A DNA stretch of 64,000 nucleotides from Sipunculus nudus (Eukaryota; Annelida; Sipuncula; Golfingiida; Sipunculidae): assembly GCA_026874595.1 (NCBI GenBank), contig CM049306.1, forward strand, positions 9,108,519-9,172,518. The letters are read 5' to 3'. This document shows positions 24,401 to 33,400 of the stretch, in pieces. Below the pieces are notes generated by a model. That model was not told where the DNA came from and searched no databases. It saw only the letters and a program-made list of their open reading frames with translations. The position numbers and the translations under genes are program-made. Within the stretch, counting starts at the first letter, position 1; every line of letters starts with the position of its first letter.

Positions 24401-27400
24401 TACACTGGTTACAAATACTTTATGGTACAACAGTTTACATATTTGATCATGTGTATCCTGTGTGTGTTCACAAACTGTATTCATGAAATGTATAAAAGAT
24501 CACTAGCTGGACAAGTTGTACCAACAGCAGGTAACTGCTACCTGCATGCTTACTGAAGGACTAGTAGCAACTAAAACTATTAATGATTTAATTGCCTGGT
24601 TTCCTTCCTTATTCATGTCTAACAGTGTCTTCTTGAGATTTTCAGACATGCTTCTTGCTGTGAGTATAATGGACGATGAGGATAACTTTTCCTTAATTTC
24701 AGGCAATGCAGGAAATAATTGGCAAGTAAATCATGCTTAGATCTCTTTCCCTTAAAAGGTCAGTAGATACACTGCTGATAAAGAGTAAAACCTGATCAAC
24801 TGACCACGTTTTATGAAAACACCTGTGTGTCCCTCTACTGCAGCACTATGTGTCACCAGATCAAACTGTAATTGTATCCGCCAAAACAGAGTTTTGCGGA
24901 TACTATGTTTTCAGCTGGCCGCCGCCGCCGCGTAGGTGTCCGGAGAACTCCTCCGTAATTTTGCATGTGTATAGTTCTCACAAAGCTCTTTATCATACGC
25001 TAAACTGGTGGCGCCACCTGCAACCCTTTTTTGCACAGCGTCCATCTGTTTGTCTGCCAAGGGCAAAAATCACTCATATACAATATAGTGGTTTGACTTA
25101 TCTGCCTTAAATTTTGCATATGTATACAACTTGGATGGCTTTCTGGATTTTTTGGTAGGTAGCGCAACCTACATACACAATTTGGCTGCAGACATCCATG
25201 CTGATATGCAACACTTCACCCGTTCCACTCTGATTTAGGCGGATACAAGTAGTCGCTTGTCGACTACCCGTATTCTAGTTTTACATTGTAGAAAGCAAGA
25301 AATTGATACAAGCTTAAATATTTTACTCACTCATGCTCCGTGCACAGTTCTAACTGTTTTGTCTTTATAAAGATGACCAGACTTACCAAAGGACCAGATG
25401 TCAGCTTTGTAATCATAAGGATTATCCTTTAATGTCTCACATAAAATCACTTCAGGGGCCATCCTGTAACATAATTAAAACAGAAAGTAGAAAATTAGTA
25501 TATAAATGATTTAATGTTCAAGGAGACCACACGATCACACAATTTAGGAAAGCCAGTACAGGGAAATGTTATACGGCCCTGGACCAAGACTATGCTCATC
25601 ATATTAACTTGCATATGCATAACATATACCTGATTGGCTATGATTCAGTATGAACTGGCATTATCTGACAAGATTTTTAAAATTAAAATCTTGATATAAC
25701 TTAAATTTAATAGTCCATGAGAATTACTGGACTTACAGATACAGCTGAATGTAAAAAAAATCATTGGATTTAAAGAAAAACTACATAACATTAACTATTA
25801 GAATGAACACAATGTCTGGATATATTTAAAGACCCTTACCAGAAAGGTGTGCCGATGAATGAGTCTCGTCTCTGGTGTGTCCTTGTGTTTTTAGCTGAGA
25901 CACCAAAGTCAGCTGAATTAAGAAAAACACTGAGTGTGTCAAAATACAATATAAATAGCTATATTTTTCTTATAAATTGAACTGATGTGTAATTCATTTT
26001 CTCGAATTTTACTCCCATTCATATTTCTAATTCAATCTCTATCACACAGTGCGACTGCCTAAACCTGTAATGTCAGTTTCAGCTGTAGCATGGTTGAGAC
26101 CAATTTTCTCTAAATATTTGTAAAGTCGAGAATGGAATCACACTTTGGGTACAATTTTACTTGAACAGATTCTTTACTTCCAGTTTATAAAATAAACCAC
26201 AAGGCTATCGAGAACAAGCAAGAATGTCCTTAAAAGTTATTAATATATCATATCCAATACAGGATAAACTTATTCACACTGACTTCGTATCATACTATTT
26301 TAATCTATCTAACCTTAACCAAGATTTAAAAACATAAGTTAATTGTGTACTGCCTATACTGTCATAACGTGTGACCCACTTATCAAATCTGAACTCCGTG
26401 ACACTGTATTAATATCCTGAGCTGGTATACAACTCCCTTATATTATCGATGTCCTATCTTACACTTCACATAATACGGTCATTAAATTGCATGCGTTCCT
26501 AGCTCTGGTGAACACCGAGGCTGTCTTCAATCATAAAGGTACACTGTACGTGTTCACCTACCTAACTTGACAGAACCATCCAATGTGAGGAGTACATTGC
26601 CAGCCTTTAAATCTCTGTGTATGACTTTGTTGTTATGGAGAAAATCCAGTGCCAAACACATCTCTCGTCCAACACGCCTGATCTGTGGCTCCGTGAGTGG
26701 TTTCTCCAGTTCCAACATGATGCTGTCTACAGCTCCGCCACCACAAAACTCTATGTACATCTGTAAAGAGAAGCAGAGCTCAAGCAATTAACACAAAACT
26801 CTATGTACATCTGTAAAGAGAAGCAGAGTTCAAGCAATTAACACAAAACTCTATGTACATCTGTAAAGAGAAGCAGAGCCCAAGCAATTAACACAAAACT
26901 CTATGTACATCTGTAAAGAGAAGCAGAGCTCAAGCAATTAACACAAAACTCTATGAACATGTGTAAAGAGAAGCAGAGTTCAAGTAATGAACGCAAAACT
27001 CTAAGTACATCTGTAAAGAGAAGCAGAGCTCAAGCAATTAACACAAAACTCTATGTACATCTGTAAAGAGAAGCAGAGCTCAAGCAATTAACACAAAACT
27101 CTATGTACATCTGTAAAGAGAAGCAGAGCTCAAGTACTGAACACAAAACTCTATGTACATCTGTAAAGAGAAGCAGAGCTCAAGCAATTAACACAAAACT
27201 CTATGTACATCTGTAAAGAGAAGCAGAGCTCAAGTAATGAACGCAAAACTCTAAGTACATCTGTAAAGAGAAGCAGAGCTCAAGCAATTAACACAAAACT
27301 CTATGTACATCTGTAAACAGAAGCAGAGCTCAAGCAATTAACACAAAACTCTATGTACATCTGTAAAGAGAAGCAGAGCTCAAGCAATTAACACAAAACT

Positions 27401-30400: not shown

Positions 30401-33400
30401 TCTATGTACATCTGTAAAGAGAAGCAGAGTTCAAGTACTGAACACAAAACTCTAAGTACATCTGTAAAGAGAAGCAGAGCTCAAGTACTGAACACAAAAC
30501 TCTATGTACATCTGTAAAGAGAAGCAGAGCTCAAGCAATTAACACAAAACTCTATGTACATCTGTAAAGAGAAGCAGAGCCCAAGTACTGAACACAAAAC
30601 TCTATGTACATCTGTAAAGAGAAGCAGAGTTCAAGTACTGAACACAAAACTCTATGTACATCTGTAAAGAGAAGCAGAGCTCAAGTACTGAACACAAAAC
30701 TCTAAGTACATCTGTAAAGAGAAGCAGAGCTCAAGTACTGAACACAAAACTCTATGTACATCTGTAAAGAGAAGCAGAGCTCAAGCAATTAACACAAAAC
30801 TCTATGTACATCTGTAAACAGAACAAGAGCCCAAGTACTGAACACAAAACTCTATGTACATCTGTAAAGAGAAGCAGAGCTCAAGCAATTAACACAAAAC
30901 TCTATGTACATCTGTAAACAGAACAAGAGCCCAAGTTCTGAACACAAAACTCTATGTACATCTGTAAAGAGAAGCAGAGCTCAAGCAATTAACACAAAAC
31001 TCTATGTACATCTGTAAAGAGAAGCAGAGCTCAAGCAATTAACACAAAACTCTATGTACATCTGTAAAGAGAAGCAGAGCCCAAGTACTGAACACAAAAC
31101 TCTATGTACATCTGTAAAGAGAAGCAGAGTTCAAGTACTGAACACAAAACTCTATGTACATCTGTAAAGAGAAGCAGAGCTCAAGTACTGAACACAAAAC
31201 TCTTAAGTACATCTGTAAAGAGAAGCAGAGTTCAAGAAATGAACACAAAACTCTATGTACATCTGTAAAGAGAAGCAGAGTTCAAGTACTGAACACAAAA
31301 CTCTATGTACATCTGTAAAGAGAAGCAGAGTTCAAGTACTGAACACAAAACTCTATGTACATCTGTAAAGAGAAGCAGAGTTCAAGTACTGAACACAAAA
31401 CTCTATGTACATCTGTAAAGAGAAGCAGAGCTCAAGCAATTAACACAAAACTCTATGTACATCTGTAAAGAGAAGCAGAGCTCAAGTACTGAACACAAAA
31501 CTCTATGTACATCTGTAAAGAGAAGCAGAGCTCAAGTACTGAACACAAAACTCTATGTACATCTGTAAAGAGAAGCAGAGCTCAAGCAATTAACACAAAA
31601 CTCTATGTACATCTGTAAAGAGAAGCAGAGCCCAAGTACTGAACACAAAACTCTATGTACATCTGTAAAGAGAAGCAGAGCCCAAGTACTGAACACAAAA
31701 CTCTATGTACATCTGTAAAGAGAAGCAGAGCTCAAGCAATTAACACAAAACTCTATGTACATCTGTAAAGAGAAGCAGAGCTCAAGCAATTAACACAAAA
31801 CTCTATGTACATCTGTAAAGAGAAGCAGAGCTCAAGCAATTAACACAAAACTCTATGTACATCTGTAAAGAGAAGCAGAGCTCAAGTACTGAACACAAAA
31901 CTCTATGTACATCTGTAAAGAGAAGCAGAGCTCAAGCAATTAACACAAAACTCTATGTACATCTGTAAAGAGAAGCAGAGCCCAAGTACTGAACACAAAA
32001 CTCTATGTACATCTGTAAAGAGAAGCAGAGCCCAAGTACTGAACACAAAACTCTATGTACATCTGTAAAGAGAAGCAGAGCTCAAGCAATTAACACAAAA
32101 CTCTATGTACATCTGTAAAGAGAAGCAGAGCTCAAGCAATTAACACAAAACTCTATGTACATCTGTAAAGAGAAGCAGAGCTCAAGCAATTAACACAAAA
32201 CTCTATGTACATCTGTAAAGAGAAGCAGAGCTCAAGTACTGAACACAAAACTCTATGTACATCTGTAAAGAGAAGCAGAGCCCAAGTACTGAACACAAAA
32301 CTCTATGTACATCTGTAAAGAGAAGCAGAGCCCAAGTACTGAACACAAAACTCTATGTACATCTGTAAAGAGAAGCAGAGCTCAAGCAATTAACACAAAA
32401 CTCTATGTACATCTGTAAAGAGAAGCAGAGCTCAAGCAATTAACACAAAACTCTATGTACATCTGTAAAGAGAAGCAGAGCTCAAGCAATTAACACAAAA
32501 CTCTATGTACATCTGTAAAGAGAAGCAGAGCTCAAGCAATTAACACAAAACTCTATGTACATCTGTAAAGAGAAGCAGAGTTCAAGTACTGAACACAAAA
32601 CTCTTATGTACATCTGTAAAGAGAAGCAGAGCCCAAGTACTGAACACAAAACTCTATGTACATCTGTAAAGAGAAGCAGAGCCCAAGTACTGAACACAAA
32701 TCTCTATGTACATCTGTAAAGAGAAGCAGAGCTCAAGCAATTAACACAAAACTCTATGTACATCTGTAAAGAGAAGCAGAGCTCAAGCAATTAACACAAA
32801 ACTCTATGTACATCTGTAAAGAGAAGCAGAGTTCAAGTACTGAACACAAAACTCTAAGTACATTTGTAAACAGAACAAGAGCTCAAGTTCTGAACACAAA
32901 ACTCTTAAGTACATCTGTAAAGAGAAGCAAAGTTCATTAATCAATTATATCAATTATTGGTTCTTTTCCTTATAAATAACAGATCACAATGGAATAATTT
33001 TTATGTAACTGATATGTAAGGCCAGACTTTTTTAATCTTTCGGTTTACGAACCCGCCGACCTCCGATTTCCTCAAATCAGAAAAAAAATAAAATTTGCAT
33101 TTTGTGTTTTTTTTTCTTTTATATTGCGCCGCTGAGTCCGTAACTGTTGCCATTGCAAAAAAAGCCATGTTGATTATGAACCTGTAATTAGCGTAAGTGT
33201 CAGAACTCTTCCGATTGGCTGATAAGTTAGCTTTCCTGTTTGCAAATGGAGTTTTTAAGCCAATCATGATAGCGTATTCTTCGGCCATAAAGGCAAATGA
33301 ATGGGCGTCTAAAAGGTACAAAGATATGGAGAATTCACGGAGATTTTCTCTTTGGAATATAATTATGATTATGTCAATTAAATAATATTTACAAAATAAA

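Follow-up and report, generated by a model that had tools for sequence, protein, structure and literature searches.

In Sipunculus nudus, the intron that precedes a kinase exon of an SLK/STK10-like gene ends in a minisatellite of 124 units, each of which copies the end of that intron together with the start of the exon, and the gene is thus confronted with a long series of nearly identical acceptors. We consider it probable that the array is a neutral mirage minisatellite of unusual size, mostly tolerated by a gene that would normally use the exon-proximal acceptor, and not a dedicated switch. Directly supported are the anatomy of the array, its uniqueness, its origin from the native acceptor, the stops that follow the upstream copies, the lack of ratchet sites and the recurrence of such arrays at other splice sites of the genome.

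The gene lies on the minus strand of the window, by which we mean the whole stretch of 64,000 nucleotides that was analysed. The parts of it that frame the array are, in gene direction:

53681 to 53845, minus strand: upstream coding exon, ending in NAKLW, with the donor TTATGG/GTAAGTT at 53681/53680 (the slash marks the splice junction), at which the 26.9-kb intron starts
26761 to 26791, minus strand: last 31 intron nucleotides before the exon-contiguous acceptor, with a TTAAT branch-like motif, a pyrimidine tract and TTTACAG
26562 to 26760, minus strand: kinase exon of 199 nt, SLK/STK10-like, followed by the donor GTAGGT
25840 to 25912, minus strand: next downstream exon

The exons before and after the kinase exon are both in phase with it, and the initial annotation had correctly located both the kinase exon and the donor that follows KLW. 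The kinase exon encodes the kinase core, and among solved structures its translation is closest to SLK (3.6e-26) and then to STK10 (6e-26). A glycine-loop exon is found at L017:8677-8973. The N-terminal 196 residues, once assembled, give a match to Pkinase (1.2e-39), and an ORF downstream gives one to the PKK family. With a Ste20-type kinase domain closest to SLK/STK10 and a C-terminal PKK region, the predicted product has the make-up of an SLK/STK10 kinase. In a search of the 1.43-Gb genome the kinase exon occurs once at full identity, the next kinase exon reaching 45% over 47 residues, and the gene is apparently single copy, being the sole SLK/STK10-like gene found. Because the exon search points to a single copy, and because skipping the 199-nt exon would shift the reading frame, correct splicing must still occur.

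The array and the features within it and at its outer end are the following:

26742 to 32936, minus strand: 50-bp minisatellite of 124 units, each made of 31 nt of intron end (with TTCTCTTTACAG) and the first 19 nt of the kinase exon
26961 to 26962, minus strand: lost acceptor dinucleotide, now AC, in the fourth upstream acceptor as counted from the real site
29406 to 31886, minus strand: stretch with an exact second copy in the array at a shift of 2401 bp (either 48 units duplicated internally or an expansion in the assembly)
32915 to 32947, minus strand: outer flank, which carries the intron end in a diverged form (identity at 28 of 30 aligned positions, with one 3-nt gap) and represents the ancestral acceptor or else the oldest of the edge copies

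Tandem Repeats Finder reports 123.8 copies at a period of 50 and an end at 32936, which replaces the 32934 first proposed. Splitting the array at the exon-like start yields 124 units, spaced by 50 nt in 119 cases and by 51 nt in four, and upholds the original description of about 123 upstream repeats of an intron end joined to 19 nt of exon. In gene direction each unit opens with ATGTACATAGAGTTTTGTG, identical to the 19 nt with which the exon at 26760 begins, and continues with TTAATTGCTTGAGCTCTGCTTCTCTTTACAG or a slight variation of it, which corresponds to the last 31 nucleotides of the intron. The AG is intact in 122 of the 124 acceptors (121 of the 123 upstream ones), the two exceptions being an AA before 32863 and the AC before 26960. 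The last 14 nt, GCTTCTCTTTACAG, are common to 114 of the acceptors, and on an approximate metazoan matrix drawn from general knowledge 114 units reach an acceptor score identical to that of the real site, a value that on the same approximate matrix is equalled by just one of the 3374 other minus-strand AGs of the window. The TTAAT branch-like motif, identified by inspection, is present in 61 of 123 units. No special RNA fold was found in the last units (fold z-score +0.95), and no Rfam family was found in the window.

The units fall into 21 types arranged in a non-trivial order, with singleton types clustered at both edges of the array. Within it, a block of 48 units is repeated at a shift of 2401 bp, with an uninterrupted exact match of 2481 bp. 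Either the block was duplicated recently or it was expanded in the assembly; because the two copies agree exactly, the count of 124 depends on the duplication being real, the number of units ranging accordingly from about 76 to 124. If real, the exactness of the duplication hints at a recent change in the length of the array.

Both halves of the unit can be traced to a single source. The array unit was not found elsewhere in the 1.43-Gb genome, nor does the window hold, outside the array, any 19-mer within three mismatches of the exon part. The outer flank aligns to the intron part of the unit with a score of 43, against a best score of 22 among 1886 other YAG sites. From the flank copy and from this uniqueness it follows that the whole unit derives from the native junction, and therefore that the array grew from the real splice site.

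Other repeats are found in the same window. A mobile element of about 6.4 kb (33017-39433) lies in this intron as well, some 80 bp away from the array on its outer side, and is bounded by imperfect terminal inverted repeats (GGCCAGACTTTTTTAAT). Other scaffolds carry three more copies of it at 98-99% identity, and a fragment of its end, about 290 bp long, occurs many times; the 691-aa ORF of the element gave no Pfam match. A repeat of about 250 bp at 40623-40918 has dozens of genome copies at about 94% identity, and a 280-bp tandem repeat at 4403-5514 (4 copies), whose period recurs in locus L051 and as 279 bp in L044, may be a dispersed satellite. A two-copy 87-bp repeat at 23561-23733 was considered as a further boundary array and set aside, as it spans no exon boundary.

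The use of an upstream acceptor would have clear consequences for the message. For all 121 intact upstream acceptors an in-frame stop follows, after 19 codons in 117 cases and after 36 in four, as had been anticipated for the distal copies, and the frame is open only from the copy joined to the exon. Some misuse of the upstream acceptors is likely, because the copies equal the real acceptor in score and the distal ones among them are transcribed first. An array of mutually exclusive exons was also considered and rejected, the unit having just 19 nt of exon and no good donor.

Arrays of this general kind have precedents, contrary to the initial view that no comparable case had been described. 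In amphioxus, mirage minisatellites, a name that citing papers credit to Canestro 2002, are known from Adh3, the globins BflGb6 and BflGb9, troponin C and PGBD5 (PMC3087553, PMC3902484; the troponin C and PGBD5 cases come from PMC3902484). These splice-boundary arrays are reported without disturbed splicing, and in the globin mirages the boundaries of the clusters escape homogenisation (PMC3087553, PMC3902484). Like them, the kinase repeats span an intron/exon boundary, copy the splice signals, adjoin the real site and have edge units that escape homogenisation; amphioxus mirages can involve the 5' as well as the 3' boundary, and the present genome likewise holds both donor and acceptor arrays. 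The scale, on the other hand, is different: the BflGb6 arrays described comprise 3 to 6 units, each of 150-160 bp, while the Adh3 units measure 10-72 bp, whereas the kinase array has 124 units of 50 bp. The human CBS gene carries a 31-bp VNTR, c.1444_1467+7(16_21), with 16-21 units, which spans a donor (PMC2630376, citing Lievers 2001). It too is a minisatellite that copies a splice site across an exon/intron boundary but, unlike the kinase array, it copies a donor, is far shorter at those 16-21 units and is polymorphic in people. The title of a paper cited in PMC2630376 links this VNTR to reduced enzyme activity and would, as far as a title goes, indicate that boundary arrays are not always silent. 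In human segmental-duplication genes, internal tandem repeats at exon-intron boundaries, the same position as in the kinase gene, can change splicing according to the available part of PMC2812944; there, unlike in the kinase array, the variable repeats can be retained in transcripts or spliced out of them, and that part of the paper describes no acceptor array this long. Judged by its features, namely a unit that spans a boundary beside the real one, an AG that is kept in nearly all copies, a homogenised interior and diverged edges, the kinase array would belong among the mirages; it is an extreme case of a known kind and not the first of its sort.

The same genome holds further examples. Our survey covered 67 non-SLK exon-centred loci (219 kb), retrieved by queries for kinases, Ras and myosin; further exons of kinesin, chaperonin and SNF2 type fell outside it. 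Arrays with a period of at least 15 and at least 2.4 copies were counted. Nineteen arrays cover 4.2% of the surveyed sequence, and four of them, all in myosin loci, span a splice junction (two acceptor, two donor), which means at least four more boundary arrays in the genome:

L071, 2592-2883: acceptor array, 31 bp, nine acceptors, all CAG
L060, 1758-2299: acceptor array, 82 bp, seven acceptors
L077, 523-1522: donor array, 36 bp, about 28 copies (Tandem Repeats Finder)
L076, 6-1083: donor array, about 20 bp, with 35 AG/GTAGGT and 15 AA/GTAGGT sites

The exons beside all four are myosin exons by PDB or Pfam match; that of L076 matched myosin when joined to its neighbour and gave no match alone. 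Among the nine arrays with at least five copies, four span a junction. Given a chance of 8% per random seed, which is a rough estimate and not a measured value, this has a probability of 0.004 for four of nine and 0.06 for four of 19. Junctions thus show no sign of being avoided and are perhaps somewhat enriched; because all four cases lie in exon-rich myosin loci, the rate of four in 67 is not one to extrapolate. Overall, the survey points to arrays across splice boundaries, acceptors as well as donors, as a recurrent feature of this genome. Copied splice dinucleotides are intact in 7/7, 9/9 and 24/24 cases in other arrays, alongside the 122/124 of the kinase gene. Selection keeping the copied junctions is undetectable in L060, L071 and L077, where the junction positions show no significantly higher conservation than the other positions of the unit. 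Such persistence is as expected if the repeats do little harm.

The genome searches returned two further observations. Several consecutive myosin-head matches at C2:44848559-44852248 (G000) cover the same profile region (about 109-204), as expected for alternative muscle myosin exons; the best PDB match of a muscle myosin exon is 3i5f, which we take to be from squid, followed at very small score differences by vertebrate and other muscle myosins. On the small contigs C61, C62, C66, C72, C73, C75, C89 (twice) and C99 (G000) there are nine full-length, uninterrupted Cpn60 (GroEL-like) matches of equal score, which suggests that the assembly includes several related bacterial, possibly symbiont, genomes.

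The array might instead act as a length-dependent brake, with a fraction of transcripts spliced to the 121 strong upstream acceptors, meeting a premature stop and decaying, and with less kinase made the longer the array. The stop behind every intact upstream acceptor speaks for a brake, as do the scores of most upstream acceptors, equal to that of the real site on the approximate matrix, and the CBS boundary VNTR with its association, by cited title, with reduced activity (PMC2630376). We nonetheless think it unlikely: amphioxus mirages are reported not to disturb splicing (PMC3087553, PMC3902484), which makes a large effect of array length on kinase output less likely, and the conservation of junctions in the three other arrays shows nothing of a selection for working decoys. 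It is decidedly unlikely that the number of copied acceptors determines how much pre-mRNA of an essential kinase is lost to splicing with premature stops, in which case the length of the array would be a heritable, rapidly mutating control of SLK/STK10 output and mirages in numerous genes of the lineage would act alike.

That the array is an assembly artefact, in whole or in length, appears very improbable. The 48-unit block, exact over its 2481 bp, could be an assembly duplication, and for one amphioxus mirage an aberrant assembly in a draft genome has been reported (PMC3087553). However, an artefact could alter the unit count and would not invent the structure, with its 21 unit types in non-trivial order and its singletons at both edges; the array sits inside a 110.9-Mb scaffold, and four similar arrays with other units exist elsewhere in the genome. 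Scarcely credible, finally, is the proposal of the initial annotation that recursive splicing takes the spliceosome step by step through the array to the last acceptor. While the intron is 26.9 kb long and its acceptors are regularly spaced, the array contains no YAG/GT, which also eliminates AG/GT zero-length exons, and its GT dinucleotides are poor donors, one matching six of nine consensus positions and all others five at most. Both recursive splicing and the creation of exons inside the array are disfavoured on these grounds.

We therefore return to a tolerated mirage minisatellite as the probable explanation. A tandem duplication would have chanced to span the native intron/exon junction of the SLK/STK10-like gene, and unequal exchange or slippage would then have expanded it to about 124 units. 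Splicing most likely picks the exon-proximal acceptor, since the length of the intron (27 kb) means that the acceptor would be paired with the donor at the other end of the 199-nt exon, and since the exon would become too long if it began at an acceptor beyond the nearest few units. This choice would also be the simplest way for the gene to work. Acceptors further upstream would either not be chosen or yield stop-containing RNA that is destroyed; if upstream choices are unmade or their products removed in this way, the array would be mostly tolerated, presumably at low cost.

The array is a natural stress test of splice-site choice: out of about 122 near-identical acceptors, a kinase gene that is apparently single copy has to use the last. 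Accurate splicing would require a very strong preference for the exon-proximal site; with inaccurate splicing, the length of the repeat would alter the output of the gene. The recurrence of such arrays in a small survey would carry the mirage phenomenon of amphioxus over to this lineage and open the way to a genome-wide test on existing RNA-seq.
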